From Neoroseomonas rubea (lineage in GTDB: Bacteria > Pseudomonadota > Alphaproteobacteria > Acetobacterales > Acetobacteraceae): 32,225 nucleotides of DNA. How positions within the stretch are numbered: the stretch's first letter is position 1; every line of letters begins with the position of its first letter. The position numbers were made by a program, and so were the translations under genes. The notes under the pieces were generated by a model that made no database searches, was not told the DNA's origin, and saw nothing but the letters and a program-made list of their open reading frames with translations. Of this stretch, positions 7,440-28,457 are shown piece by piece. The DNA lies in assembly GCF_016106015.1 (NCBI RefSeq), contig NZ_JACADQ010000016.1, forward strand, positions 1 to 32,225, written 5' to 3'.

Positions 7440-8156
7440 ATGGCAGAAGCCTATTCCTCGCTCGCCAAGCCCACCATCCTCGTGGTGGAGGACGAGGCGC
7501 CGCTGCTGACGCTGCTGCGCTACAACCTGGAAAAGCAGGGCTTCCGGGTCGAGGAAGCCGCTGACGGGCAGGAGGCGCTGCTGCGCGTCTCCGAGGCGCG
7601 GCCCGACCTCGTGCTGCTCGACTGGATGCTGCCCGCGCTCTCGGGCATCGAGGTCTGCCGCCAGCTGCGCCGCCGCCCCGGCACGCGCGACCTGCCCATC
7701 ATCATGGTCACGGCGCGCACCGAGGACCAGGACGCGGTCCGCGCGCTGGACACGGGTGCCGACGACTACATCGCCAAGCCCTTCGCGATGGACGCGCTGC
7801 TCGCGCGCATCCGCGCCCTTCTGCGGCGATCCGGCGGTGCGGCGACCAAGGGCGCGATCTCCTACCGCGACCTCAGCATGGACCAGGACGCGCACCGCGT
7901 GACGCGCAACGGGCGCGCGCTGCATCTGGGCCCGACCGAGTACCGGCTGCTGGAATTCTTCCTTCAGCATCCGGGGCGCGTCTTCACGCGCGAACAGCTG
8001 CTCGACGCGGTCTGGGGGCGCGACATCCATGTCGAGCCGCGCACCGTCGACGTGCATATCCGCCGCCTGCGCAAGGCCATCAACGGGCCGGACGAGGTCG
8101 ACCTGATCCGGACGGTGCGCTCGGCCGGCTACGCGCTGGACGCGGAAGGGCACTGA
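7440..8156 (+). CDS. phoB: phosphate regulon response regulator PhoB
   Basis: 238 residues, OmpR/PhoB family. Receiver domain at about 12-125: acidic pocket VVEDE (16-19), phosphoacceptor Asp61 in LVLLDWMLPALSG, switch threonine in MVTART, and Lys113 in IAKPF. The C-terminal winged helix (about 140-236) has GPTEYRLLEFFLQHPGRVFT and the recognition-helix region VEPRTVDVHIRRLRKAI. DWMLP is the PhoB form of the phosphorylation loop. The start is ATG with GCAGGGAG 7 bases upstream. It is the last gene of the operon, and because the Pho box is in front of pstS it should activate its own expression. No phoR gene for its kinase is in this window. Confidence 0.94.
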   Translation: MAEAYSSLAKPTILVVEDEAPLLTLLRYNLEKQGFRVEEAADGQEALLRVSEARPDLVLLDWMLPALSGIEVCRQLRRRPGTRDLPIIMVTARTEDQDAVRALDTGADDYIAKPFAMDALLARIRALLRRSGGAATKGAISYRDLSMDQDAHRVTRNGRALHLGPTEYRLLEFFLQHPGRVFTREQLLDAVWGRDIHVEPRTVDVHIRRLRKAINGPDEVDLIRTVRSAGYALDAEGH

Positions 8157-14293: not shown

Positions 14294-14737
14294 ATGGCCG
14301 CATTGAACGCGGGCATCACGCCCGCCGGCGAAGGCATCGACGGCGTCGTCTGGAACATCCTCGGCCAGACCTACAAGCCGGTCGCATCCTGCGAGTCCTG
14401 CTTCGCCTTCGACACGCTGTTCCCCGACGGGACCTTCGTGCCGCCGCACATCCACGCGACGCAGGACGAGTTCATCCGCGTGCTGGAAGGCCGCTTCGAC
14501 CTGGTGCTGGATGGCCAGCCCGTGGTCGCCAAGGCGGGCGACCTGATCCGGATGCCGATGGGCATCATGCACGGCATCTGGAACAAGTCCGGCGCGCCCG
14601 TGCGCGCGCTGTTCTGGGTCAGCCCCGCGCGCAGCCTGCACACGCTGTTCACGCGCATCCACAACGTGCCGGACCCGGCCGAGGTCATCCGCATCGCTGC
14701 GGAGCACGAGGTGGAGTTCCTGCCGCCGCCCGGTTGA
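14294..14737 (+). CDS. single-domain cupin protein, probably metal-binding
   Basis: 147 residues, one cupin_2 barrel. Motif 1 is PPHIHATQDEFIRVLEG, giving His52, His54 and Glu59 as metal ligands. Motif 2 is GDLIRMPMGIMHGIWNKSG, with His93 the likely fourth ligand. Such proteins can be small dioxygenases, isomerases or binding proteins; nothing here fixes the reaction. It is the last gene after livF (14-base gap, GGGAGG before the ATG), so it probably acts on, or responds to, the compound imported by the Liv-type transporter. With the arylformamidase-like hydrolase at the front of the unit, an aromatic or tryptophan-derived substrate is conceivable, but that is speculation. Confidence 0.72.
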   Translation: MAALNAGITPAGEGIDGVVWNILGQTYKPVASCESCFAFDTLFPDGTFVPPHIHATQDEFIRVLEGRFDLVLDGQPVVAKAGDLIRMPMGIMHGIWNKSGAPVRALFWVSPARSLHTLFTRIHNVPDPAEVIRIAAEHEVEFLPPPG

Positions 14738-14744
14738 AGGATGC

Positions 14745-14762
14745 GGGGGGAACCTTCCCCTC
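14745..14762 (+). terminator. short hairpin after the cupin gene
   Basis: GGGGGGA (14745-14751) can pair with TCCCCTC (14756-14762) around a 4-base loop, with one G-U pair, 7 bases after the cupin stop. There is no T-tract, so this is a weak terminator call. It resembles the G-rich/TTCCCC end of the intergenic elements near 25 kb. Confidence 0.3.
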
Positions 14763-14814
14763 GGTCCCATCCGCGCCGTGCTGCGGACCCATCGTTCGCG
14801 ACATGAGGTGAGGG

Positions 14815-15400
14815 CAGAATCGCGTGGCGCGATGTCTGCCCCGCCATCCGTGGGCATGGTGATGAGGGGGCCGGTGCGTTCGATGCCGGGCGGATCACTC
14901 GGGCCTTTGGGCGGCGAGACGACGAGGGCGGCGACCGTCTCGGCATAGGCCCCCGCAAGGTTGGGACGCAGCGCGGGCGGAGCCTCGGCCACCCCGCCAT
15001 CCAGCGCCGCGCGCAACTTCCGCCGGCAGGCCCCAGGTCGGCGCGCTTGCCTTCGACGGATTGCCGTTCCCGCGACCGCGCCGCGCCGCTGCGGAGGCCT
15101 CGGCGGCCAGACGGTTCCACGTCGCGATGAAGGTCGTGCGGAACTCGCCAAACAGGTCGGGCCGCATCGGCTTCGTCCCGAGTGCCGGCAGCGCGCGGAC
15201 GTCCAGGACGGCCCGCCGGACCCGGGTGGTGGTGGTGCGACATGCACCGCCGTTCCGGGCGGCGCGGCAGCCGCGGTCATCCTCGCCGAACACCCAGACC
15301 CCGTTCCCGTGGCCCGCGCAGATCACCTTGCCTGCCAGCAGGCGCCGTGGCCGGCGGCGCTGCCCGAAAGCGTGCTGCGCGACCCCGGCCTGCAGGGATC
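14815..15400 (-). pseudogene. decayed C-terminal half of a large serine recombinase
   Basis: No intact gene fits this stretch, but the minus strand translates into pieces that line up, in order, with the C-terminal part of large serine recombinases. One frame gives RRRPRRLLAG and VICAGHGNGVWVF (recombinase zinc-ribbon start, usually C-G-x-C), then GCRAARNGGAC (usually G-C-S-x-A-R-N-x-G-T-C), VRRAVLDVRALPAL, MRPDLFGEF and WNRLAAEASA. After a frameshift near 15000-15060 another frame gives RKLRAALDGGVAEAPPALR and PNLAGAYAETVAAL (usually H-P-N-x-A-x-x-Y-x-x-K-V), then LITMPTDGG. The N-terminal resolvase domain is missing, a ribbon cysteine is His, and the frame is broken, so it is dead. The edges are approximate. 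The match is from memory of the family, not a search. Confidence 0.55.
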
Positions 15401-15507
15401 CTCGCCGACCGCCGATCAGCCCCGGAGACGTTGAACGGGCGCCGCCATGCAACCAGAGGGCGGCATCGGCGTTCTTCGCCAACGACATGTCGTGGGGAGA
15501 GGAACGG

Positions 15508-16089
15508 ATGAAGCGTCCATATGCGCTTCTGGTCGGGTTGACCTTGACCATGGCAATGGCGCCACTGCCCAGCCATGCGCAGGCCCCGCCCGTGCTGCTG
15601 TACACGCAGGCGCTCTCGCCCGCCGCGACCGTCCTGATCCAGCAGAAGCTGCAGCAGGCGGGCGTATACCCGGGCCAGGCTGACGGCATCTGGGGGCCGG
15701 ACAGCCAGGCGGCACTGGAACGCTTCCAGCAGACGCGCAACCTGCAGGTCACGGGGCAGTTGAACCAGGCCACGGCAGCGACGCTCGGCGTCGCGCCCGG
15801 GGAGTTGCTTGCGGCACGGCCTGCGCAGCCGCCCGCGGCGGCTTCGTCGGGCGTGGCGATGCCGGACATCCTGAGTCCCGCCGCGGTGCGGAACGTGCAG
15901 CAGCGCCTTCGGTCGCTTGGCTTCTATCGCGGCGGGGTCGACGGCCTCTGGGGGCCCGGCACCCAGGCCGCCATCGCGCGCTTCCAGCAGGGGCGCGGCT
16001 TGCAGGCGACGGGCCAGGTCAATCCATCGACCTTGCAGGCGCTGGGCCTCGATCCGAACAACCCCGCGGCGCCGCACCGGCTCCAGTAG
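15508..16089 (+). CDS. secreted protein with two peptidoglycan-binding repeats
   Basis: 193 residues. A signal peptide (MKRPYALLVGLTLTMAMAPL, cut likely after SHAQA) is followed by two PG_binding_1 domains. The first, about 47-100, has the core YPGQADGIWGPDSQAALERF; the second, about 128-182, has FYRGGVDGLWGPGTQAAIARF. The D-G-x-W-G-P-x-(S/T)-Q-A-A pattern is the family hallmark. Such modules anchor a protein to murein. There is no catalytic domain, so it may be a structural or adaptor protein of the periplasm. The ATG at 15508 has GGGGAGAGGA just before it; an in-frame ATG seven codons earlier is less likely. The next gene, the cyclic glucan synthase, starts 107 bases downstream on the same strand. 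Confidence 0.82.
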   Translation: MKRPYALLVGLTLTMAMAPLPSHAQAPPVLLYTQALSPAATVLIQQKLQQAGVYPGQADGIWGPDSQAALERFQQTRNLQVTGQLNQATAATLGVAPGELLAARPAQPPAAASSGVAMPDILSPAAVRNVQQRLRSLGFYRGGVDGLWGPGTQAAIARFQQGRGLQATGQVNPSTLQALGLDPNNPAAPHRLQ

Positions 16090-16092
16090 CGG

Positions 16093-16134
16093 CCGATGCG
16101 GGCGGGAAAGGCGTTGCCGCATGCCTTGCATCGG
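16093..16134 (+). repeat. imperfect stem-loop between the peptidoglycan-binding gene and ndvB
   Basis: CCGATGC (16093) pairs with GCATCGG (16128-16134), and inside it AAGGC (16108) pairs with GCCTT (16123-16127), with an 8-base bulge on the left arm. It begins 3 bases after the upstream stop. It could slow or end transcription; there is no T-tract. Apart from this the 107-base gap shows nothing. Confidence 0.3.
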
Positions 16135-16196
16135 TTGCCGCAACACGAGCGCACGAGGCTTTCGCCATCCTCCAACCCGCTTGAGGCCTCCATGTG

Positions 16197-19100
16197 ATGC
16201 GGTTCCTTCGTCCCGTCCGACGGCCCGGCTCCGCCGCCGCGCCCTGGGCGAGCCGCGCACCCGTGCGCGAAGAACTCTTCAGCGTCGAGCGCCTGGAGGA
16301 ACACGCGCACAGCCTGGCGGCCGCACAGGCGGTCTCGGCGAAGCCCTCCAAGGTCTACCCTCTGGCACTGCGGCTCACGGACAACCGCGGCGTCCTGCTC
16401 GACGCCTACCGCACCATCGCCCGGGCGGCGGAAGAAGGCGCCGCCATCACGCCGGCGGCGGAATGGCTGATCGACAACTATCTCCTCGTCGAGAAGCAGA
16501 TCCACGATATCCGAAGCGACCTGCCGCCCAGCTTCTATCGGCAACTCCCGAAACTCGCCGCCGGGCCCTTCGCCGGCTATCCGAGGGTCTTCGGCCTGGC
16601 CTGGGCCTTCGTCGCCCACACCGACAGCCACTTCGCGCCCGAGACTCTGTGCCGCTACGTCCGCGCCTATCAGGACGTCGAGGTGCTCACGATCGGGGAA
16701 CTCTGGGCGATCGCGATCACGCTCCGCATCGTCCTGGTCGAGAACCTCAGGCGGCTCGCGGCGCAAATCGTCGAGGACCGCGCATCTTGCAAGGTCGCCG
16801 ACGAACTCGCGGACCGCCTGCTGGGGGCGGGCGGGCGCACCGCCGAACCCTTCGCGGCGGTGCTGGCGCATCCCGACGGTGCGTGGCCGACGAGTGCCTG
16901 CGCGGTGCAGCTCCTGCACAGGCTGCGTGACCAGGATCCGAGAATCATCCCTGCCCTGACTTGGCTCGACGAGTGCCTTGCGAAGCAGGGAACGACGGCC
17001 GACGCGGTCGTGCGCGACGAGCACCAGAGTCAGGGCGCCGCGAGCGTCACCGTCCGCAACATCATCACCAGTCTGCGACTGATCTCCGAAGTCGACTGGA
17101 GCGCGCTCTTCGAACGCATGAGCCTCGTCGACGACGTGCTCGCCGAGGCTCCCGGGTACCGGGACATGGATTTCCCGACCCGCAACCTCTACCGCAGCGC
17201 CATCGAGGAGCTCTCGCGCGGGTCGGGCCGCACGGAGCTCGACATCGCCCGCAGCGCCGTCCTTGCGACCAAGCAGGGCCGGGACGAGGCACCGGACGCC
17301 ACAGACGGCCGAAGGCGCGATCCGGGCTATCATCTCCTCACGGGTGGCCGGCCCGCCTTCGAGGCCGCCATGGGCTTCAGGCCGTCGCTGCGACGTCGCG
17401 CCTGGCAGCTGAACCAGGCGCTCGGCATCGCTGGCTATGTCAGCGCCATCACCATCGTCGCCGCCTTCCTCCTGCTGTTGCCGCTCATGGCCCTGCGCGC
17501 GGGCGGGCTCGATGGCGGCGTGCTGGCGCTGCTCGCCGCGCTGGGCGCCATCCCGGCCCTGGATGTTGCGGTCGCATTGGTGAACCGCGGCACGGCGTGG
17601 GGCTACGGGCCGCAACTGCTGCCGGCGCTGCATCTTCGCGACGGCGTACCATCCGATCTGCGCACGCTGATCGCGGTGCCGATGCTCCTGACGTCGCCGG
17701 AGGCGATCCAGGAGCAGGTTGAACGGCTGGAGGTCCATCACCTGGCGAGCTCGGATGGCGAGCTCCATTTCGCCCTCCTCTCGGACTGGCGCGATGCGCC
17801 GAGCGAACGGATGGACGGCGACGCGGCGCTGCTCGCCGCCGCCGCGGACGGCATCGCCGAGCTGAACCGCCGATACGGTCCGGCACCCGGGGGCGACCGG
17901 TTCCTGCTGCTGCATCGCGGGCGCCGGTGGAACGAGGGCGAAGGACGCTGGCTCGGCTGGGAACGCAAGCGCGGCAAGCTGCATGAGCTGAACCGCCTGC
18001 TGCGCGGCGCGACCGACACGAGCTTCATCCAGGCGGCCGAGCGGCCGCCGGTCGTGCCGGAGGGTGTCCGCTACGTCATCACCCTCGACGCCGATACGAG
18101 GCTGCCGCGCGACACCGTCCGGCGCCTGATCGGCAAGATGGCGCATCCCCTCAACCGGCCGCGGCTCGACCCGCGGGCCAGGCGGGTCGTCGAGGGCTAC
18201 GCGGTGCTGCAGCCGCGGGTCACGCCCTCCCTGCCGGTCGGGCGCGAAGGCTCGCTGTTCCAGCGGGTCTACTCGAGCCACAGCGGCATCGACCCTTACG
18301 CCTCGGCCGTCTCCGACGTGTACCAGGACCTGTTCGGCGAAGGCTCCTACGCCGGCAAGGGCATCTATGACGTCGATGCGTTCGAGGCTGCGCTGGCAGG
18401 CCGGGTGCCGGAGGCCGCGCTGCTCAGCCACGACCTGTTCGAGGGAATCTTCGCCCGCGCCGGCCTTGCCACCGATGTCGAGGTCGTCGAGGAATTTCCC
18501 GCCCGCTACGACGTCTCCGCGCTGCGGCAGCACCGCTGGGCGCGTGGCGACTGGCAATTGCTGCCATGGATCCTGGGGCGCGCTCCGCGACCCGCGGGCG
18601 GTGGCCCGGAGGCCGCCGCCGTGCCGGCCATCGGGCGCTGGAAGATGCTCGACAATCTGCGCCGCACGCTGTCGGCGCCGGCGACCATGCTGGCCTTCCT
18701 GACAGGATGGACGCTGCCCTTCCGTGCAGCGCTCGTCTGGACGGCGTTCCTGCTTGCCACGATCGTGGTGCCGCCGCTCATTCCCGCCATCAGCGCGGTC
18801 CTTCCGCGCCGTCGTGGCCTGACGGTCCGCAGCCACCTGCGCGCGCTCGGCGTCGATGTGAGGTTGGCGCTCGGCCTCTCGCTGCTCGTTCTCACCTTCC
18901 TCGCGCACCAGGCGTGGCTGATGGCCGATGCGATCCTGCGCACGCTCGTCCGTCTCTTCGTCACCCGCCGGCACCTGCTCGAATGGGTGACCGCGGCCCA
19001 GGCGACGATCGAGTGCAGGTCCGACCTGCTCGCCTTCGACCGTCGGATGGCCGGCGCGCTGGCGACCGGCGGCCTGACCATCCTCGTCGCATCGCTGTCG

Positions 19101-22100
19101 GGCCAGGGAACATGGCCTCTCGCGGCACCCTTCGCGCTGCTCTGGATCGCCTCACCCGCCATCGCGTGGTGGGCAAGCCGATCGCCGCCGGCCGGCGGCC
19201 GGCTCATGGTGCCAGAGGCCGACGCGCGCGCATTGCGGCTCATCGCGCGGCGGACGTGGCGCTTCTTCGAGGCGTTCGTGACGGCCAACGACAACATGCT
19301 GCCGCCCGACAATTTCCAGGAGGACCCCAAGCCGGTCGTCGCCCATCGCACCTCCCCGACCAATATCGGCCTCTATCTCCTGTCCGTGCTCAGCGCCCGC
19401 GACTTCGGGTGGCTGGGCACCGCGGATGCGTTGGAGCGGCTAGAGGCGACCCTCGCGACCATGGGCCGTCTCCAGCGGTTCCATGGCCATTTCTACAACT
19501 GGTACGACACGCGCGACCTGCGGCCGCTCGATCCACGCTATGTGTCCACCGTCGACAGCGGCAATCTCGCGGGGCATCTCATCGTGGTCGCGAACGCGTG
19601 CCGGGAATGGCGCGACGTGCCGATGAGCGCGGATGCACGCATCGCCGGCATCGCCGACGCGCTGGACGTCACGCGCGACGAGTGCATCCGCATTCGTGAC
19701 GGGCGCCGGACCCAGACCGTGACATGGCAGCAGCTTGACGACGCGCTCGCCACATTCACGACCGACACGCGACGGAAGCTGCCCGAAGGCGAGTCGGTCG
19801 CTGAACGCCTCGCGCGGCTTGCCGTCCAGGCCGAGGTCGTCGTCGACATCGCGGCGGCGCTCGCGGCCGAGCGCGGCGACGATGCGGGAGCGGAGGTCCT
19901 GTCCTGGCTGGCAACGGCGCAGCGCGCAATCGAGAGCCACCGCCGGGACCTTGGCGCGGCGGCCGGGCCGGACGCAGCCATGAGGAGCCGCCTCCTGGCT
20001 CTGGAGGAAGCCGCCCGGACCACGGCGCTGGCCATGGAGTTCGGCTTCCTGCTCGACCAGGACCGCAAGCTCCTGGCCATCGGCTACCAGGTGCCCGAGG
20101 GCAGGCTCGATCCGAGCTGCTACGATCTTCTGGCCTCCGAGGCGCGGCTCGCCAGCTTCTTCGCGATCGCAAAGGGCGACGTCCCGACGCGTCACTGGTT
20201 CCGCCTCGGCCGCGCGGTCACGCCGGTCGCCTCGGGCGCCGCGCTGATCTCGTGGTCGGGTTCGATGTTCGAATACCTGATGCCCTCGCTCGTCATGCGC
20301 GCCCCTGGCGGAAGCCTGATCGAGCAGACGAACCGCCTCATCGTGCGCCGGCAGGTCGAGCACGGGAGGACGCTCGGCGTGCCCTGGGGCATTTCCGAAT
20401 CCGCCTACAACGCCCGCGACCTGGAACTCACCTACCAGTATTCGAGCTTTGGCGTGCCGAGCCTCGGCCTGAAGCGGGGTCTCGGCGAGAACACCGTCGT
20501 CGCGCCATACGCGACGGGCCTCGCCACCATGGTCGACCCGGTCGCGGCGGCGCTGAACTTCCGCCGCCTCGCGGAGGTCGGTGCGCTTGGCCGCCACGGG
20601 TTCCGGGAAGCCCTGGACTACACGGCGATCCGCGTGCCGGAGGGCCAGGAGGTCGCGATCGTGCGCGCCTTCATGGCGCATCACCAGGGCATGACCATCG
20701 TCGCCATCGCGGACGCTCTGCTCGATGGCGGCATGCGGGCGCGGTTCCATGCGGAGCCCATCGTCCAGGCGACCGAACTGCTGCTGCACGAGCGCACGCC
20801 GCGCGACGTCACCATCATGCCGTCATGGATCGCCGACACGCACCCGGCCGTCCGGTTGAAGGAAATCGAGCCGCCGGGTGGCCGACGCTACACCTCCGCG
20901 CAGGATGCAGCCCCCGCCACGCACCTTCTCTCGAACGGCCGCTACACGGTCATGCTCACCGCGGCCGGCTCGGGCCAGAGCCTCTGGCGCGGCCGTGCCG
21001 TGACGCGGTGGCGCGAGGACGCGACCTGCGACGATCTCGGCTCCTACATCTTCATGCGCGACGTCGCGAGCAACGAGGTCTGGTCGGCGGGCTTCCAGCC
21101 ATGCGGCGACGAGCCCGATGGCTACGACGTCGTGTTCCACGAGGACCGCGCCGAGTTCACCCGGCGGCAGGGTTCGCTCACCACGACGCTGGACGTGGTC
21201 GTCTCGGCCGAGGACGATGCCGAGGTCCGGCGCGTCGCGATCTTGAACACCGGCACCCGGATGCGGGAGATCGAGCTCACCTCCTATGCCGAGCTGGTGC
21301 TCGGCGGTCAGGCGGCCGACGTGGCGCATCCCGCGCTTTCGAAGCTGTTCGTCGAGACCGAGCACCTGGCCGACATCGGCGCCATCCTCGCGACGCGCCG
21401 GCGGCGCTCGCCGGCGGAGCCCGAGATCTGGGCCGCGCATCTGGCCGTCGTCGACGGCCAGGCCGTGGGCCGGCCGGAGATCGAGACCGACAGGGCCCGG
21501 TTCCTCGGCCGCGGCGCCAGCATCCGCAGGCCGATCGTGATGATGGATCGCCGGTCGCTCTCCAACACGGTCGGCACGGTGCTCGACCCGGTCTTCGCGC
21601 TGCGCAGGCGCGTGAGGATCCCGCCGGGTGCAGTCGCGCGCGTGACGTTCTGGACAATCGCCGCATCCTCGCGCGACACGCTTCTCGAACTCGTGGACAA
21701 GCACCAGGACGCCGCGGGCTTCGAGCGGGCCGCGACGCTGGCCTGGACCCAGGCGCAGGTGCAACTCCATCACCTCGGCATCGATTCCGCCGAGGCGGGA
21801 CTGTTCCAGCGCCTTGCGGGCCACCTGATCTACGCCACGCCGATCCTGCGCCCGTCCTCGGAGACCATAAGGCGCGGCGGCGGCGGGCAGCCGGGGCTAT
21901 GGCCGCTTGGGATTTCCGGGGACCTGCCGATTCTCCTGCTGCGCATCAACGAGATCGAGGACATCGGGATCGCCCGCCAATTGCTGCAGGCCCACGAGTA
22001 CTGGCGGATGAAGCAGTTCGCGGTTGATCTCGTGATCCTGAACGAGCGCGCCTCCTCCTACGTCCAGGACCTTCAGGTCGCGCTCGAGACGCTGGCGCGG

Positions 22101-24758
22101 ACGAGCGAATCGCGGACGCCGCCACGCGATGCCGGGCAGCCCGGACGTGTCTTCGTGGTGCGTGCGGACCTGATGTCGTCCGAGACCGCCGCGCTGCTCG
22201 CGGCGACGGCCCGCGTCGTGCTCGTGGGCCGTCGCGGGCAGCTTTCCGATCAGCTCAACCGTGCGCCGCAGCGCGGCATCGCGCTCCCGCCCGCGGCCAG
22301 GGCGGCGGCCGCGCCCGTCATGCCGGCTGGATCGCCGCCCCTGCCGGAACTGGAATACTTCAACGGGCTCGGCGGATTCGCGGCGGATGGACGGGAATAC
22401 GTCACCATCCTGGGCTCCGGCCGGTCGACGCCGGCGCCGTGGCTCAACGTCGTCGCCAACCCCGCCTTCGGCTTCCAGGTGCCGACCGAGGGCGGCGGCT
22501 ACAGCTGGTCGGTCAACAGCCGGGAGCACCAGCTGACCCCCTGGTCGAACGACCCCGTGGCCGACCGGCCGGGCGAGGCCTTCTACCTGCGGGACGAGGA
22601 CACCGGCGCATTGTGGAGCCCGACCGCCTCGCCCATCCGCAACAACGGGGAAACCTTCGTCAGCCGCCACGGTCGCGGCTACAGCAGGTTCGGTCACGCC
22701 GGGCAGGGGATCGAGAGCGACCTCCTGCAGTACGTGCCGCTGGAAGATCCGATCAAGATTTCGCGCCTCGTGCTGCGCAATGTCTCCGGCCGGGCGCGCC
22801 GGATATCCGTGACAGCCTATGTCGAATGGGTCCTTGGCCCGTCACGGTCGGCAACCCTGCCCTTCGTGACCACGGAGATCGACGGCGGGACCGGTGCGAT
22901 GTTCGCGCGCAATCCCTGGAACCCGGCCTTCGCGCAGCGCGTCGCCTTTGCCGATCTTCGCGGCCGGCAGACGGACTGGACGGGGGACCGGCGGGAGTTC
23001 ATCGGCCGCAACGGGACGCTGGCCCGCCCGGCTGCGCTCGTCGGCACGGGGCCGCTGTCCAGGACCACCGGGGCTGGGCTCGATCCCTGCGGCGCGCTCA
23101 GGACCACGGTCGACCTGCCGCCAGGCGGCATCGTCGAGATCGCCTTCTTCCTCGGCGATGCCGCCAGCGCAGAGGAAGCGCGCAGCCTGGTCGCGCGCTA
23201 CCGCAGCTGCGACCTCGACGCCGTGAAGGCGGACGTCGATCGTCACTGGGAGGATGTCCTCGGCGCGGTGCAGGTGCGCACGCCGGACCGCGCGATGGAC
23301 ATCATGCTGAATGGCTGGCTGCTGTATCAGACCCTGGCCTGCCGGGTCTGGGCGCGCTCCGGCTTCTATCAGGCGAGTGGCGCCTACGGCTTCCGGGACC
23401 AGCTGCAGGATGGCATGGCGCTCGCCGCGTCACGCCCGGCGCTGACGCGCGAACACCTCCTGCGTGCCGCCGCGCGGCAGTTTCCCGAGGGCGATGTGCA
23501 GCATTGGTGGCTGCCGCATTCCGGCCAGGGCGTGCGCACGCGGATCTCCGACGATCGGGTGTGGCTCGCCCTGGCCGTCGCGCATTACCTCGACGTCTCG
23601 GGCGACACGGGCTTGCTCGATGTCGAGGTGCCCTTCCTGGAGGGCCAGAGACTGACGGCAGGCGAGCACGACAGCTTCTTCCAGCCGACGGTGGCCGATG
23701 AGACGGCGACGCTGTTCGAGCACTGTGCCCGCGGCCTCGATGCGAGCCTCGCGATCGGCAGCCACGGGCTGCCGCTGATCGGCACCGGCGACTGGAACGA
23801 TGGGATGAACTGCGTCGGCGAAGCGGGACAGGGCGAGAGCGTGTGGCTTGGCTGGCTGCTCGACGCCGCGCTGGCGGCATTCGCACCCATCGCCGAGGCG
23901 CGCGGCGAGACCGGCCGCGCGGAGCAGTGGCGCGCCTATGCCGCGACCCTGCGGGCATCGATGGAACGCGAGGCATGGGATGGGGACTGGTACCGGCGCG
24001 GCTATTTCGACGACGGCACGCCACTGGGTTCGGCCAGCAGCGAGGAATGCCGGGTCGATTCCATCGCGCAATCCTGGGCCGTCCTGTCGGGCGCGGCGGA
24101 TCCGGCGCGCGCGGCGCGGGCCATGGCGGCGGTCAGGCGGGAGCTGATCCGCCCGCAGGACGGCCTGGCGCTGCTGTTCACCCCGCCCTTCGACAAGACG
24201 CCGCTCAATCCCGGCTACATCAAGGGCTATCCGCCAGGCATCCGCGAGAATGGCGGCCAGTACACCCACGCCGCCCTCTGGTCCGTCATGGCCTTCGCGG
24301 CGCTTGGCGAGGGCGACAGGGCGGTCGAGTTGTTCGCGATGCTGAATCCGATCAACCACGCCCGGACGCGGGCCGGGGTCCACCGCTACAAGGTGGAACC
24401 CTATGTCATCGCTGCCGACGTCTACGCCGCGCCGGCCCATCTCGGACGGGGCGGCTGGACCTGGTACACCGGCTCCGCGGGATGGATGCAGCGCGCCGGC
24501 ATCGAGAGCATCCTCGGGCTGCGCATACGGGGCGGTGCCCTTCTCCTGGACCCCTGCATCCCCCGGGCATGGCCGCGTTACGAGCTGACCGTCGCGTGCG
24601 GCGCGGCGCGGTACGAGATCCACGTGGACAATCCCGACGGCGTCAATCGCGGCGTCGCCACCGCCACGTTGGATGGCGCGGTGATCACGGCGCGTCCGCT
24701 GCGCCTGCCGTTCGTTGACGATGGTGCACGTCATCGGATCCATCTGACGCTTGGATGA
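16197..24758 (+). CDS. ndvB: cyclic beta-1,2-glucan synthase (NdvB/ChvB type)
   Basis: About 2853 residues, the size of NdvB/ChvB (about 2830). The enzyme builds and cyclises beta-1,2-glucan from UDP-glucose at the inner membrane for the periplasm. The N-terminal part is soluble to about 405. Membrane segments lie near 411-465, 826-870, 891-914 and 956-995. Between them is the GT84 glycosyltransferase core, with LDADTRLPRD (about 630-639) and the Q-x-x-R-W motif QHRWARGDWQ (about 778-787). Next come a glycoamylase-like region (about 1300-1500, MAHHQGMTIV) and two GT36/GH94 phosphorylase-type domains, from about 1575 and 2050; the second holds the catalytic GDWNDGMN near 2531-2538, thought to set ring size. 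The start is ATG 16197, with GAGG 10 bases upstream; GTG 16194 is an alternative. The frame is uninterrupted. Cyclic glucans serve osmoadaptation and host interaction in rhizobia, Agrobacterium and Brucella. Confidence 0.93.
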   Translation: MRFLRPVRRPGSAAAPWASRAPVREELFSVERLEEHAHSLAAAQAVSAKPSKVYPLALRLTDNRGVLLDAYRTIARAAEEGAAITPAAEWLIDNYLLVEKQIHDIRSDLPPSFYRQLPKLAAGPFAGYPRVFGLAWAFVAHTDSHFAPETLCRYVRAYQDVEVLTIGELWAIAITLRIVLVENLRRLAAQIVEDRASCKVADELADRLLGAGGRTAEPFAAVLAHPDGAWPTSACAVQLLHRLRDQDPRIIPALTWLDECLAKQGTTADAVVRDEHQSQGAASVTVRNIITSLRLISEVDWSALFERMSLVDDVLAEAPGYRDMDFPTRNLYRSAIEELSRGSGRTELDIARSAVLATKQGRDEAPDATDGRRRDPGYHLLTGGRPAFEAAMGFRPSLRRRAWQLNQALGIAGYVSAITIVAAFLLLLPLMALRAGGLDGGVLALLAALGAIPALDVAVALVNRGTAWGYGPQLLPALHLRDGVPSDLRTLIAVPMLLTSPEAIQEQVERLEVHHLASSDGELHFALLSDWRDAPSERMDGDAALLAAAADGIAELNRRYGPAPGGDRFLLLHRGRRWNEGEGRWLGWERKRGKLHELNRLLRGATDTSFIQAAERPPVVPEGVRYVITLDADTRLPRDTVRRLIGKMAHPLNRPRLDPRARRVVEGYAVLQPRVTPSLPVGREGSLFQRVYSSHSGIDPYASAVSDVYQDLFGEGSYAGKGIYDVDAFEAALAGRVPEAALLSHDLFEGIFARAGLATDVEVVEEFPARYDVSALRQHRWARGDWQLLPWILGRAPRPAGGGPEAAAVPAIGRWKMLDNLRRTLSAPATMLAFLTGWTLPFRAALVWTAFLLATIVVPPLIPAISAVLPRRRGLTVRSHLRALGVDVRLALGLSLLVLTFLAHQAWLMADAILRTLVRLFVTRRHLLEWVTAAQATIECRSDLLAFDRRMAGALATGGLTILVASLSGQGTWPLAAPFALLWIASPAIAWWASRSPPAGGRLMVPEADARALRLIARRTWRFFEAFVTANDNMLPPDNFQEDPKPVVAHRTSPTNIGLYLLSVLSARDFGWLGTADALERLEATLATMGRLQRFHGHFYNWYDTRDLRPLDPRYVSTVDSGNLAGHLIVVANACREWRDVPMSADARIAGIADALDVTRDECIRIRDGRRTQTVTWQQLDDALATFTTDTRRKLPEGESVAERLARLAVQAEVVVDIAAALAAERGDDAGAEVLSWLATAQRAIESHRRDLGAAAGPDAAMRSRLLALEEAARTTALAMEFGFLLDQDRKLLAIGYQVPEGRLDPSCYDLLASEARLASFFAIAKGDVPTRHWFRLGRAVTPVASGAALISWSGSMFEYLMPSLVMRAPGGSLIEQTNRLIVRRQVEHGRTLGVPWGISESAYNARDLELTYQYSSFGVPSLGLKRGLGENTVVAPYATGLATMVDPVAAALNFRRLAEVGALGRHGFREALDYTAIRVPEGQEVAIVRAFMAHHQGMTIVAIADALLDGGMRARFHAEPIVQATELLLHERTPRDVTIMPSWIADTHPAVRLKEIEPPGGRRYTSAQDAAPATHLLSNGRYTVMLTAAGSGQSLWRGRAVTRWREDATCDDLGSYIFMRDVASNEVWSAGFQPCGDEPDGYDVVFHEDRAEFTRRQGSLTTTLDVVVSAEDDAEVRRVAILNTGTRMREIELTSYAELVLGGQAADVAHPALSKLFVETEHLADIGAILATRRRRSPAEPEIWAAHLAVVDGQAVGRPEIETDRARFLGRGASIRRPIVMMDRRSLSNTVGTVLDPVFALRRRVRIPPGAVARVTFWTIAASSRDTLLELVDKHQDAAGFERAATLAWTQAQVQLHHLGIDSAEAGLFQRLAGHLIYATPILRPSSETIRRGGGGQPGLWPLGISGDLPILLLRINEIEDIGIARQLLQAHEYWRMKQFAVDLVILNERASSYVQDLQVALETLARTSESRTPPRDAGQPGRVFVVRADLMSSETAALLAATARVVLVGRRGQLSDQLNRAPQRGIALPPAARAAAAPVMPAGSPPLPELEYFNGLGGFAADGREYVTILGSGRSTPAPWLNVVANPAFGFQVPTEGGGYSWSVNSREHQLTPWSNDPVADRPGEAFYLRDEDTGALWSPTASPIRNNGETFVSRHGRGYSRFGHAGQGIESDLLQYVPLEDPIKISRLVLRNVSGRARRISVTAYVEWVLGPSRSATLPFVTTEIDGGTGAMFARNPWNPAFAQRVAFADLRGRQTDWTGDRREFIGRNGTLARPAALVGTGPLSRTTGAGLDPCGALRTTVDLPPGGIVEIAFFLGDAASAEEARSLVARYRSCDLDAVKADVDRHWEDVLGAVQVRTPDRAMDIMLNGWLLYQTLACRVWARSGFYQASGAYGFRDQLQDGMALAASRPALTREHLLRAAARQFPEGDVQHWWLPHSGQGVRTRISDDRVWLALAVAHYLDVSGDTGLLDVEVPFLEGQRLTAGEHDSFFQPTVADETATLFEHCARGLDASLAIGSHGLPLIGTGDWNDGMNCVGEAGQGESVWLGWLLDAALAAFAPIAEARGETGRAEQWRAYAATLRASMEREAWDGDWYRRGYFDDGTPLGSASSEECRVDSIAQSWAVLSGAADPARAARAMAAVRRELIRPQDGLALLFTPPFDKTPLNPGYIKGYPPGIRENGGQYTHAALWSVMAFAALGEGDRAVELFAMLNPINHARTRAGVHRYKVEPYVIAADVYAAPAHLGRGGWTWYTGSAGWMQRAGIESILGLRIRGGALLLDPCIPRAWPRYELTVACGAARYEIHVDNPDGVNRGVATATLDGAVITARPLRLPFVDDGARHRIHLTLG

Positions 24759-25048
24759 TCTTCGCGATCGTTCAGCAATAGCCGTCGCCGGCGGCCGGCG
24801 CCGACGCGCCCTCGCGGGCCACCGCTCCGCCGACGACATCCCGTCCGACGCCCACGTCGACGAGCAGGACGGCTCTGGCGAGGCCCGTTCTCCGCGATGT
24901 GTGTTCGGCATGGCTGGATCCATCCCCAGGCCCCCTCCCTTCCCGATCGTCCAGGACCGGACTTCCGCTATCGGCTCCCAGGTTCCAGAAAGGACTTGAG
25001 GCGGGTCCGGGGGGAGACGTTCCCTTCTTCCCCCGCCCGGAGGTCCCA
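24759..25048. other. 290-base gap with a repeat-like segment
   Basis: No gene is supported here. The 3' part (about 24918-25038) has a C-rich block (CCCCCTCCCTTCC), a middle part with GACTTCCG and AGAAAGG, then G-rich GGGGGGAGACGTTCCC and CCCCCGC. These occur in the same order as in the palindromic element at 25821-25938 downstream of the next gene, so it may be a diverged copy. The similarity was judged by eye. Confidence 0.35.
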
Positions 25049-25831
25049 ATGCCCGGCCAGATCGCCCTGCACCGCACCCATGCCGGCGCCGTCGCCCATG
25101 TCACCGTGGATCACGACGCCAAGCTCAACACGCTCAACCCCGAGCTGATGCACGACTTCGCCGCGACCTTCGCGACGCTGTCGGCCGACCGCGCGCTGCG
25201 CGCCGTCGTGCTGACCGGCGCCGGGGCGCGCGCGTTCATCGGCGGCGCCGACATCACCGTCATGGCCGGCATCGACAGCGAGGCGGGGGGCGAGGCCTTC
25301 ATCCGGCTGGTGCATGCATGCTGCCGCGCGGTACGGGACTGCCCGGTGCCCGTGCTCGCGCGGATCAATGGCTGGTGCCTCGGCGCGGGGCTCGAGGTCG
25401 CGGCCGCCTGCGACCTGCGCATCGCGGCGGACAGCGCTCAGTTCGGCATGCCGGAAGTGCGCGTCGGCATCCCTTCGGTGGTGGAGGCCGCACTGCTCCC
25501 GGGCCTGATCGGCTGGGGCCGCACGCGCCGGCTGCTTCTGCTGGCCGAGACGATCGGCGCGGCCGAGGCGCTGGACTGGGGCCTGGTGGAACGCATCGTG
25601 CCTGCGGCGGCGCTCGACGACGCCGTCGATCAATGGCTCGCGCTGCTTCTGGACGCGGGGCCGGAGGCGATCCGCGCGCAGAAGGCGCTGATCCGGCGGT
25701 GGGAGGACCTACCCCTGTCCCAGGCGATCGCGGCGGGGATTGACGCCTTCGCGGCGTCGTGGCGCACGGAGGAACCGCGCAGGATGCTGGGCGGATTCCT
25801 CGACAAGAAGAAGAATGCGTCGGGGGAGTGA
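25049..25831 (+). CDS. enoyl-CoA hydratase/isomerase family protein (both catalytic glutamates present)
   Basis: 260 residues, crotonase fold. Oxyanion segment AFIGGADITVM (62-72), then INGWCLGAGLEVAAACDLRI with Glu116 and FGMPEVRVGIPS with Glu136. These are the two catalytic glutamates of classical hydratases, so this copy should be a water-adding enzyme, unlike the first paralogue at 1939-2724. Substrate unknown. The start is ATG 25049 with GGAGG 5 bases upstream. The last residues (DKKKNASGE) are read from DNA that runs into the palindromic element, whose first hairpin covers the stop codon; the element may have replaced the original gene end. It is convergent with the FAD monooxygenase gene. 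Confidence 0.84.
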   Translation: MPGQIALHRTHAGAVAHVTVDHDAKLNTLNPELMHDFAATFATLSADRALRAVVLTGAGARAFIGGADITVMAGIDSEAGGEAFIRLVHACCRAVRDCPVPVLARINGWCLGAGLEVAAACDLRIAADSAQFGMPEVRVGIPSVVEAALLPGLIGWGRTRRLLLLAETIGAAEALDWGLVERIVPAAALDDAVDQWLALLLDAGPEAIRAQKALIRRWEDLPLSQAIAAGIDAFAASWRTEEPRRMLGGFLDKKKNASGE

Positions 25832-25938
25832 ACTCCCCCGAATCCCCCTCCTTTTTCTGTCTTTTGGTGACTGACCTCCGAGGTCAGTTCCCAACAGACA
25901 AGAAAGGGAGGGGGGCGGGGGAGGTTCCCCTCCCCCGC
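25821..25938. repeat. long palindromic intergenic element between convergent genes
   Basis: From 25830 to 25927 the sequence reads nearly the same on both strands around the centre at 25879. The core CTGACCTC-C-GAGGTCAG is exact and the outer arms (C-rich left, G-rich right) match imperfectly for about 48 bases each side. Two further exact hairpins flank it: CGGGGGAGT/ACTCCCCCG (25821-25829, 25832-25840), spanning the TGA of the hydratase gene, and GCGGGGGAGG/CCTCCCCCGC (25915-25924, 25929-25938), ending 4 bases before the stop of the opposite gene. It can serve as a two-way terminator. Its length and symmetry suggest a mobile or REP-type repeat. Confidence 0.7.
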
Positions 25939-25942
25939 ACCT

Positions 25943-27154
25943 TCACCGCGGCGCCGCGAACCCCGCCATCGCCGCGTACCCACCTGCGATCGCGGCCAGC
26001 TCCTCCCGCGCGATCACATCCTCCAGCCGTGCGAAGCCCTCGGGGGCGCGTTCGGAGACGACATCCACCACGCGCTCCGGCCCGCCGCGGCGGTTGCTGC
26101 GCACGATCTCCGCCGTCTTGGGCAGGCGATCCGCCTCATAGGCCGCGAGCGCAGCCGGGCCGGGGGCGGCGGCGATGGCATCCGCCAGGCAGCGCGCATC
26201 GAGTACCGCCTGGGAGGCGCCGTTCGAGCCCACCGGGTACATCGGGTGCGCCGCGTCGCCCAGCAGCGTGACGCGCCCACGCGTCCAGAAGGGCAGCGGA
26301 TCCCGGTCGCACATCGGGTATTCCCAGAATTCCGGCGTGGCGCGCACCAGCGCGGCCACGTCCAGGAACGGGATCCGGAAGCGCGCCACATGCGGCAGCA
26401 CGTCCGCGAGCCGCCCGGGGCGCGACCAATCCTCCCGCCGCGGCGGCGGCTTCGTCGCATCCCCGATCTGCGCGCAGACCACCCAGTTGGTCAGACGCAT
26501 GCCCGGGCGGGATCCGGCGGCGATCGGGTAGAGCACCAGCTTTTCACGCATGTCGCCGGCGACGATCATGGTGTCGCCGCCCTCGAATTCCGGCCAGTCG
26601 ATCGCGCCGCGCCACATCTGGATGCCGTTCCAGCGGATGCCGCCATCTGCGGGGTGCAGCGCGGCGCGCACCACGGAATGGATGCCGTCGGCACCGACCA
26701 GCAGGTCGCCCGTCGCGCTGCGCCCATCGGCGAAGTCGAGCCGCACGCCGTCCGCGGTCTCGGCGAAGGCCGCGAGCCGCGCGCCGGTCATCAGCGCGGC
26801 ATCGCCCAGCCTCTCCCGTGCCGCCGCCCACAGCACCTGGTGCAGGTGGCCGCGATGGATCGAGAATTGCGGCACGTCGTGCCCCGCCCAGGTGCCGCGC
26901 TTCTCGACCCAGATCTCCTGGCCGAAGCGGTTCAGGTAGCGCAGTTCGCGCGTGCGCACCGCGACGGCGTCGAGCGCCGGCAGCAGGCCAAGCCCCGCCA
27001 GCTCGCGGATCGCATGCGGCAGGGTGTTGATGCCCACCCCGAGCGGCTTCACCTCGGACGCCGCCTCGAAGACGGTGCAGCCGATGCCGCGCTCCCGCAG
27101 CATCAGGGCGAGCGTCAGGCCACCGACGCCGCCGCCCGCGATCAGCACATGCAT
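25943..27154 (-). CDS. FAD-dependent monooxygenase, PhzS-like (group A flavoprotein)
   Basis: 403 residues. The protein has the FAD dinucleotide motif GGGVGG (7-12) with Glu30 ending the second strand, the DG motif GADGIHS (154-160) and the GD motif LLGDAAHPMYPVGSNGASQA (298-315). Such enzymes use NAD(P)H and O2 to hydroxylate aromatic or heterocyclic rings. The wording closely follows what I recall of the phenazine hydroxylase PhzS (EVKPLGVGIN, LRYLNRFGQEIW, QFSIHRGHLHQVL, YPMCDRDPLPFW), so it belongs to that branch, but no phenazine synthesis genes are here. The substrate is probably another aromatic acid. There is no signal peptide, so it is cytoplasmic. The start is ATG at 27154. A small membrane-protein gene ends 6 bases upstream on the same strand, so the two are probably cotranscribed. 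Confidence 0.85.
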   Translation of the reverse strand: MHVLIAGGGVGGLTLALMLRERGIGCTVFEAASEVKPLGVGINTLPHAIRELAGLGLLPALDAVAVRTRELRYLNRFGQEIWVEKRGTWAGHDVPQFSIHRGHLHQVLWAAARERLGDAALMTGARLAAFAETADGVRLDFADGRSATGDLLVGADGIHSVVRAALHPADGGIRWNGIQMWRGAIDWPEFEGGDTMIVAGDMREKLVLYPIAAGSRPGMRLTNWVVCAQIGDATKPPPRREDWSRPGRLADVLPHVARFRIPFLDVAALVRATPEFWEYPMCDRDPLPFWTRGRVTLLGDAAHPMYPVGSNGASQAVLDARCLADAIAAAPGPAALAAYEADRLPKTAEIVRSNRRGGPERVVDVVSERAPEGFARLEDVIAREELAAIAGGYAAMAGFAAPR

Positions 27155-27160
27155 GGCGGG

Positions 27161-27337
27161 TCAGGACTCCTCGTCGTCGGGCGGCGGGGGCGGGGCTTCC
27201 TCCGGCCAGGCGGCGCGCGCCTCGGCGCGGCGCTTCGCAGCGCAGGCGAGCAGCGCGAGGCCCGCGCCAGCGGCGACCAGCGCCGTCCCTGCGAGGGTGG
27301 CGCCGGCAAGCCCGACAGCGATTGCGCGAATGAACAT
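27161..27337 (-). CDS. small single-helix membrane protein, unknown function
   Basis: 58 residues. A hydrophobic stretch (AIAVGLAGATLAGTALVAAG, about 5-24, continuing LALLAC) is followed by a basic turn (AAKRRAEARAAW) and an acidic, proline-rich tail (PEEAPPPPPDDEES). This suggests one membrane helix with a cytoplasmic tail. ATG 27337 is chosen because GGGAG lies 5 bases before it; an ATG four codons earlier lacks a site. It ends 6 bases before the FAD monooxygenase gene. I do not recognise a family. It could be a chance frame, but the ribosome site and spacing favour a real gene. Confidence 0.5.
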   Translation of the reverse strand: MFIRAIAVGLAGATLAGTALVAAGAGLALLACAAKRRAEARAAWPEEAPPPPPDDEES

Positions 27338-27470
27338 TGGCACTCCCATTTCGCCTCAGGGTAGCATCGTCGCGTGGCATGCACCCGGACGCCGGGGCAG
27401 CGCCGCCAGTCTAGCCCGCCGCGACGGCGCCGTCGCGCCGGCGGCCAACGATACCGGAGGAGATCCACAC

Positions 27471-28457
27471 ATGAGCACCAGCCGTCGTGCCCTACTGGGC
27501 GCAGGCGTTGCCGCCGCAGCCCTGCCGTTCATGCCTGCCGAGGCGGCCGCGCCCTTCGTCGGCCGCGGCGCGCCCGCCTGGTACCGCTTCCGCTTCGGCG
27601 CCTATGAGGCGACGATCGTCTCCGACGGCGCGCTGCCGCTGGGCAAGGCGGAGGACGCCTTCACCGGCGCGCAGCCCGGGCAGATCGTCGACCTGATGCG
27701 CGCCAACTTCCTCGACCCGGCGAATGCGGTGCTCGAGCAGAACGCGCTGATCGTGAACACCGGCCGCCAGTTGATCCTGTTCGACACCGGCATGGGCGAC
27801 AGCATGGGGGAGGCGAGCCGCATGTTCGGCCCGACCACCGGCCGGCTGCTGCGCAACATGCGCGCGGCGGGGATCGAGCCGTCGCAGATCGACCTCGTCG
27901 TGCTCTCCCACGCCCATTGCGACCATTGCTGGGCGCTGGTCGATGCGCAGGGCAACCGCAACTTCCCCAACGCGCAGGTGGCACTCGCCGAAGCCGACCT
28001 GAACTTCTGGACGGATGACGCGAACAAGCGCGGCCCGGCCTTCATGGTGCCCTTCATCGACGGGGCGAAGAAGAACCTCTCCGCCTATCGCGACCGGATG
28101 GTGATGGTGCGCAACGAGCAGGAGGTGGTGCCCGGCGTGATCGCGCTCTCCGCCCCCGGCCATACGGTGGGGCACACGGTCTATGCCGTGACCTCGGGGC
28201 AGGAGGCGATGGTCTATACCGGCGACCTCGCCCACCATCACATCCTGCTGCTGCGCCACCCGATGTGGGAATTCGCCTTCGACACCAACCCGCAGCAATC
28301 GGCGCAGACCCGCGCGCGGATGCTGGACCGCTTCGCGACCGACCGCACGACGGTCATGTCCTACCACTTCCCCTGGCCGGGCACGGGGCGGATGGTGAAG
28401 GAAGGCCAGGGCTTCGCCTGGCATCCCACGCCGATGGACGTGACAAGCCTCGGCTGA
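27471..28457 (+). CDS. exported metallo-beta-lactamase-fold hydrolase
   Basis: 328 residues. A twin-arginine signal (SRRALLGAGVAAAALPFMPA, cut likely after AEA, about residue 26) sends it to the periplasm folded. The metal-binding set is complete: SHAHCDH (His147, His149, Asp151, His152), His231 in APGHTVGHT, Asp252 in TGDLAHH and His299 in SYHFPWPG. This is the pattern of the quorum-quenching lactonase/AidC-like and methyl-parathion-hydrolase-like branch, where lactones, esters or phosphotriesters are cleaved by two zinc ions. The substrate cannot be read. The ribosome site GGAGGAG lies 9 bases before the ATG. It is divergent from the small membrane protein and PhzS-like pair, with 133 bases between, and convergent with the small gene at 28468. 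Confidence 0.85.
   Translation: MSTSRRALLGAGVAAAALPFMPAEAAAPFVGRGAPAWYRFRFGAYEATIVSDGALPLGKAEDAFTGAQPGQIVDLMRANFLDPANAVLEQNALIVNTGRQLILFDTGMGDSMGEASRMFGPTTGRLLRNMRAAGIEPSQIDLVVLSHAHCDHCWALVDAQGNRNFPNAQVALAEADLNFWTDDANKRGPAFMVPFIDGAKKNLSAYRDRMVMVRNEQEVVPGVIALSAPGHTVGHTVYAVTSGQEAMVYTGDLAHHHILLLRHPMWEFAFDTNPQQSAQTRARMLDRFATDRTTVMSYHFPWPGTGRMVKEGQGFAWHPTPMDVTSLG

Follow-up and report, generated by a model that had tools for sequence, protein, structure and literature searches.

A probable REPIN-like dispersed palindrome next to gene stop codons in Neoroseomonas

The window, a stretch of 32,225 nucleotides from Neoroseomonas rubea, contains a long palindrome that occupies the gap between the convergent stop codons of an enoyl-CoA hydratase gene and a FAD monooxygenase-like gene. 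What kind of element is this, and how did it come to lie between two gene ends? A sequence-only reading had proposed a repeated palindromic element, inserted at the end of the hydratase gene and now serving as a two-way terminator.

Structure of the palindrome and its half-units

The two arms (25821-25878 and 25880-25937) are 58 nt each, 74% complementary and separated by 1 nt, bearing out the symmetry about position 25879 that had been described. As RNA, 25821-25938 is predicted to fold into three hairpins (-89.1 kcal/mol, z -9.5; 0/200 dinucleotide shuffles equally stable). The predicted DNA fold of 25813-25945 contains the same three stems (z -8.7, 0/200 shuffles equally stable), including the side hairpins noticed earlier, one with 9 pairs and one with 10, and the opposite strand of 25813-25945 folds equally strongly (z -8.3). 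The hydratase TGA (25829-25831), also said to be covered by the palindrome, sits in the loop of the left hairpin, the stop codon being supplied by the element. At the other side, the palindrome had been said to end 4 bases from the opposite stop, which is correct for base 25938 (the stop being 25943-25945), but other copies show that the element extends to that stop. Its parts and surroundings are as follows.

25813-25945, both strands: whole element, two inverted half-units; covariance-model match of 134.5 bits (+) and 125.3 bits (-), this element being among the 27 sequences used to build the model (R1)
25820-25841, + strand: left side hairpin of 9 pairs, loop TGAA with the hydratase TGA, subtype a7 (G5-AG arm); from fold and sequence
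25844-25914, no strand assigned: central long imperfect hairpin; from arm search and fold
25915-25938, - strand: right side hairpin of 10 pairs, subtype a8 (G5-AGG arm); from fold
25939-25945, - strand: terminal ACCTTCA, its reverse complement TGAAGGT containing the neighbour's TGA stop; from sequence and end consensus
24898-25042, no strand assigned: second, degraded copy upstream of the hydratase; covariance model, 37.9 bits
25049-25831, + strand: enoyl-CoA hydratase/isomerase gene, last residues (SGE-stop) attributed to the element; from gene call, Pfam PF00378 and orthologue ends
25943-27154, - strand: FAD-binding monooxygenase-like gene, convergent neighbour; from Pfam PF01494 and orthologue ends

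The central hairpin carries C5TCC and a T-rich tract, the core GACTGACCTC-CGA-GAGGTCAGT and then the matching right arm. The degraded copy, just upstream of the same hydratase, had been missed by the sequence-only reading. Rfam returned 20 sub-threshold matches at E values up to 1 and none at the gathering score; those to microRNAs were taken as chance. Integron attC sites, considered as a candidate, were dropped, the conserved boxes here lying at the palindrome centre.

Each half-unit spans ~63 nt and comprises a purine-rich end (AAGGTC), a G-rich hairpin, a C5-6 tract, a T-rich tract and a core, TTGGGGACTGAC; the consensus of 31 aligned halves is roughly TGAAGGTC-GGGGGAGG-loop-CCTCCCCC-GAN-CCCCCTCCC-TTCTTTGTC-NN-TTGGGGACTGAC. 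In a full copy, two halves meet head to head across a short centre, for which the core pattern used for scanning has 7 nt, and the ends of the copy are terminal inverted repeats, AAGGTC and GACCTT. Our non-redundant set of 94 copies includes 75 full and 19 solo ones, 5 of the latter at the edge of a contig or locus, so that a partner half may be missing through truncation.

Four subtypes, defined by hairpin arm and tract, accommodate 137/158 parsed halves. The two halves of a copy are usually of unlike subtype: among 66 full copies analysed, both halves could be typed in 60, and only 5 of these were homotypic, versus 18.2 expected from shuffled pairing (0/5000 shuffles as low). Unlike halves are thus favoured; a possible reason is the instability of long palindromes that are nearly perfect. 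Inner arms pair no better within an element (16.70) than between elements (17.34), with 185/200 shuffles reaching the observed value, so the long stem gives no sign of compensatory selection; together with the pairing of unlike halves, this suggests that each half behaves as a conserved module. The length of the G-run equals that of the C-run in the half's own tract in 102/130 halves and that in the partner tract in 40/130. All four subtypes show a mirror-repeat-like match between the hairpin arm and the C/T tract beside it. A mirror or triplex function is not claimed, since the parsing expression limits the visible forms and the classes may simply be subfamilies.

The conserved dyad core would be in keeping with a DNA-level signal (an uptake sequence, a methyltransferase site or a nucleoid site) that simply builds up at gene ends; according to the available text of PMC3049150, terminator formation is predicted for paired uptake sequences elsewhere. 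However, the unit is long and occurs in four subtypes, and no known site was recognised in it, which makes this reading quite improbable.

Other palindromes accompany some copies. A second one, ~40 bp long and of the GGGCGCCCATCGGC...CGATGGG type, lies within or next to the elements of loci L015, L025, L138 and L151, between the tract and the terminal hairpin. At 7560-7829 of locus L156 two half-units are separated by 150 bp containing further palindromes, and similar motifs occur in L169.

Distribution and signs of mobility

That the palindrome is a repeat located at gene 3' ends, as had been suggested, is confirmed by blastn and covariance-model copies and by gene-context counts: far from being single, it has many copies in its own genome and in relatives. 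The N. rubea genome (5.0 Mb, 774 contigs) contains at least 57 blastn matches on both strands (from the best 40 of 95 candidates). Model R1, built from 27 full copies, gives at least 146 matches at E values up to 0.001 (from the best 150 of 1450 candidates), corresponding by hand count to ~79 places. Copies lie at or near the ends of contigs C114, C126, C768, C224, C712, C95, C153, C282, C306, C148, C303, C212, C312 and C15. With more than 12 copies so placed, contig breaks in the draft probably fall at copies, and the true number of copies may be higher; assemblies across the genus seem to be broken by the element, which may also change where genes end and how they are ordered.

Among 35 genomes of the genus (own included), the best blast match lies below 1e-14 in 16, whereas the other 19 have none below 6.7e-9. 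The 16 well-matched genomes measure 4.2-6.4 Mb; of the other 19, 18 are smaller than 4.2 Mb. Matches to R1, counted on both strands, number at least 150 in G003, 131 in G028, 100 in G020 and 34 in the complete genome G010; eight small-genome species have 2, 1, 2, 1, 2, 0, 0 and 0, so that three of the eight give no model match at all. Scanning one genome from each of 84,980 species with the strict core pattern retrieved 49 stretches: 43 from Neoroseomonas, 3 from Roseomonas sp. CECT 9278, 1 from a Rhodospirillales MAG and 2 from Lactobacillaceae (L115, L139), the last two being dropped for want of a half-unit or model match. The plasmid and phage collections searched yielded no match. As far as searched, the element is confined to Neoroseomonas and near kin (Acetobacteraceae), and no description of it was found among the papers listed in searches of an open-access library.

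This distribution bears on the idea that the copies are unrelated terminators, alike because GC-rich terminators converge on G5A/TC5 hairpins. Other GC-rich terminator-like hairpins do occur at gene ends in the genus (G021); yet convergence is contradicted by a 63-nt half and a TTGGGGACTGAC core common to loci at up to 95% identity, as well as by a strict pattern that matched essentially Neoroseomonas alone, and is hardly credible.

Several observations suggest that copies move. Orthologous sites are empty at L003, L016, L113, L002 and L009 in G010 and at L003, L030 and L111 in G020, and at some empty junctions the two flanking genes run into each other. The L036 junction holds a full or shortened element in 8/30 fetched genomes and a solo half in one; in small-genome species it holds an unrelated hairpin. 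In the closest relative, which is 93% alike to N. rubea at the window locus, all 10 distinct tested loci with flanks kept together carry an element or remnant. Genome G003 contains eight other copies 91-95% identical to its L126 copy, so amplification there was probably recent.

Neither of the two hallmarks of transposition that the sequence-only reading had listed as worth looking for was found. For target duplications, 65 of the 75 full copies had usable flanks, and no offset or length rose above the 95% level of permuted pairs. For a RAYT/TnpA partner, the RAYT model (NF047646) scored over its cut-off in 0/35 genus genomes, with one weak match in G027, and Y1_Tnp (Pfam PF01797) matched in 1/35, again G027, and in none of the element-rich genomes. 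G027 is itself element-poor (best blast match to the element, E 2.5). As positive controls, the RAYT and Y1 searches matched in 6 and 5 of 14 control genomes.

Terminal inverted repeats and near-identical copies would also be compatible with a MITE descended from an insertion sequence of the DDE type that carries matching terminal inverted repeats. Two results make such an origin unlikely, namely the 65 elements without target duplication beyond permuted controls and the contents of three inward-facing half pairs, 0.7-2.9 kb apart, which enclose ordinary genes and no transposase: GNAT and ligA in L133, an Imm11-family gene in L273 and, in L243, an ORF with a sub-threshold TPR match. No parent insertion sequence was present among the fetched copies. 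Since neither transposase nor target duplication was found, movement is inferred only from copy number, near-identical copies and empty sites. In L273 (981-1771, own contig C57) and L243 (956-1828, G010) one gene lies between the inward-facing halves, an arrangement that is either cassette-like or a gene inserted into an element.

Gene ends and the inverted hydratase

According to a simple codon-usage gene caller, 41 of the 75 full copies lie in tandem, 24 in convergent and 3 in divergent spacers, with 1 inside a called gene and 6 at an edge where a neighbour is missing. The same loci contain 153 tandem, 45 convergent and 54 divergent spacers that are 30 nt or longer, a baseline that counts the element spacers too; against it, divergent locations are depleted (Fisher test, p 0.0006) and convergent ones enriched (p 0.004), in loci that were chosen by similarity or strict pattern and are no random sample. 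The stop-side gap has a median of 3 nt in tandem spacers (n=41) and of 1 nt over the 48 ends of the 24 convergent pairs, and 83/89 such gaps fall within -20 to 15 nt; element-free spacers are short too (medians of 13 nt tandem and 19.5 nt convergent), so this tight fit at stops is only partly special. At L126 the TGA of the gene end lies inside the element in the three genomes that have it, versus TAG in 26/26 fetched genomes without it, in which the neighbour gene also differs. Solo halves are found in both orientations in tandem spacers, and therefore no strand preference is claimed for them.

At the window locus, the hydratase tail DKKKNASGE had been suspected of coming from the element. 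The C-terminus is GGFLDKKKNASGE, and its last codons, TCG GGG GAG TGA (SGE-stop), are element sequence. Most orthologues from large genomes have a basic tail (ARRKG, ARKKK or ARKKKA) soon after a conserved GF/EF/DF, and that of G028 is longer (AAKARRAARD). The KKK of the window protein resembles these tails, so that DKKKN appears native or nearly so and only SGE-stop is clearly of element origin. The FAD monooxygenase ends at the same place and length in relatives without the element, although its TGA is the element's other end.

Insertion at a gene end, as had been envisaged, is too simple a history here. The orientation of the hydratase relative to the monooxygenase is opposite in 23/23 relatives with both genes on one contig (hand count), and in G028 one element lies between the monooxygenase stop and the hydratase start. 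The right half of the degraded copy (24898-25042) and the half of the G028 element next to the hydratase start are identical at 61/68 positions, the right half of the 25813-25945 element and the other half of the same G028 element at 63/72, and all other pairings of window and G028 halves score far lower. The left half of 25813-25945 would derive from another copy; a half of the same subtype is seen by eye at the hydratase end in G030. The simplest account of the locus would be an inversion of the hydratase between two elements, both junctions lying inside elements, by which left and right halves of two different elements appear to have been joined. Both joints fall within repeats, and the assembly is a draft of 774 contigs, so misassembly instead of inversion is possible.

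The window also contains ~10.2 kb (14737-24915) at a place where, in G028, G018, G030 and G015, the DNA left of 14737 adjoins the hydratase end. This stretch includes a gene with a peptidoglycan-binding domain and a 2832-aa gene with GH94 domains, which we take to resemble cyclic beta-glucan synthases.

The window locus and L126 had suggested general rearrangement hot spots at elements, but a control showed no enrichment, and the idea is kept for the window locus only. Neighbours were kept together (both flanks in order on a single contig, no more than about 1 kb apart) at 14/17 element loci versus 11/12 control junctions in close relatives, a count from which control junctions L152 and L159 (neither flank found in own genome) were left out. 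The corresponding values in G010 are 10/15 and 8/12, with L009 entered as kept. L152 was excluded as a duplicate of L002, 4/18 loci gave no usable control junction, and each search scored the best 40 candidates from every genome.

Relation to known repeats, function and origin

REPINs are inverted REP doublets (PMC3116915), and the ends of GTAG REPs often supply a stop codon (PMC3733652), as stated in the portions of these sources available to us. The features given there for REPINs and BIMEs (two inverted hairpin units in one larger palindrome, singlets, location between convergent or unidirectional genes, stop-supplying termini) have close counterparts here, where inverted doublets and singlets are extragenic, lie at gene 3' ends and occur in many copies. 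The differences are the 63-nt halves, the C-rich and T-rich tracts, the lack of a GTAG or CGTC tag at the hairpin foot (in the consensus of 31 halves the hairpin is preceded by AAGGnC and followed by GAN-CCCCC) and the failure to find RAYT/Y1 in element-rich genomes. CGTC REPs are reported missing in Acetobacteraceae, the family of Neoroseomonas, in the accessible part of PMC3733652. A classical REP/REPIN family mobilised by RAYT, a Y1 tyrosine transposase, would account for the inverted doublet, the gene-end location and the TGA supplied to genes, yet with no RAYT match over the cut-off in 35 genomes, a Y1_Tnp match confined to G027 and no tag it becomes very improbable. By these tests of tag and Y1 enzyme, the element is REPIN-like in design and habit and not a REP/RAYT member. 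REPIN-type dispersed palindromes are thought to depend on RAYT, and the same design and gene-end habit are met here where RAYT was not found.

NEMIS/Correia and ERIC elements, which are MITEs, are likewise short, foldable and intergenic, but for the present element neither a target duplication nor, among the fetched copies, a parent insertion sequence was found. Correia elements have been reported to invert (PMC10969869, in the text available). The palindromic elements of Rickettsia can also add residues to a reading frame, but lie within genes as far as the available passages of PMC10969869 and PMC3733652 describe them, whereas here 1/75 full copies is inside a called gene. SPRITE of Streptococcus pneumoniae is another dispersed repeat that resembles a terminator and is enriched near the 3' ends of genes and between convergent ones, and whose target duplication is described as not established in the part of PMC3049150 available; it has one AT-rich stem and a U-rich tract, in contrast to the GC-rich, palindromic, three-stemmed element described here.

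With respect to function, the exits of the terminal hairpins contain 3.24 T per 10 nt versus 1.56 in nearby control sequence, and 24/140 exits versus 3/417 controls have 5 or more T in 10. These T-tracts are weak, and a terminator consensus scan found none in 24000-27500; the enrichment would suit a weak two-way terminator. A putative RNA processing or stabilising site between genes (for example an RNase III substrate), rather than a terminator, is a tentative alternative that deserves consideration: the long stem is predicted to be very stable, and 41/75 full copies occupy short, operon-like gaps between tandem genes, a position in which strong termination would deprive the downstream gene of transcription. 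Both the stem and these many locations would suit such a role, but the stem lacks compensatory pairing and the T-enrichment at the exits fits termination.

Taken together, these data lead us to favour, with a probability of roughly 0.7, a REPIN-like palindromic element that is non-autonomous, is dispersed beside the stop codons of genes, spreads between gene ends, acts as a two-way 3' end and recombines between copies. Under this reading, copies spreading between gene ends would be tolerated there because they supply stop codons and avoid promoters. Transcribed from either side, the element may fold into three hairpins that would serve as a two-way 3' end, whether as a leaky terminator, an RNA stabilising or processing site, or both; a two-way terminator or RNA 3'-end function is what we infer from the features above. 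Recombination between copies could swap halves and flip a gene lying between them, as proposed for the window hydratase.

A clue to the origin may come from recN. The weak blast matches in nine small-genome species (L046-L054) all correspond to one place, a solo half-unit between recN and ligA, and a half-unit also follows recN in L133 (2498-2542), from the large-genome relative Neoroseomonas soli, and in the own genome (L267, 938-988). All 11 recN 3' ends examined carry it (11/11), in loci selected by element match, among which element-free genomes would not appear. The sequence just beyond this half-unit is conserved as well, so the place is orthologous. It is possibly an ancestral copy of the family or, alternatively, an old insertion kept there. 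More speculatively, and with doubt prevailing, a host terminator may have turned into a dispersed element: the half-unit would have begun as the recN 3' end in the genus ancestor. In one branch it would then have doubled, giving inverted pairs made preferentially of unlike halves, and would have reached ~80 or more copies with no Y1 transposase involved, halves being exchanged between copies by recombination. Given a REPIN-like design where RAYT was not found, a possible ancestral copy at recN and species with and without the element, the origin and spread of such repeats can be studied directly in this genus; in several small-genome species, the recN half-unit is still about the sole copy.
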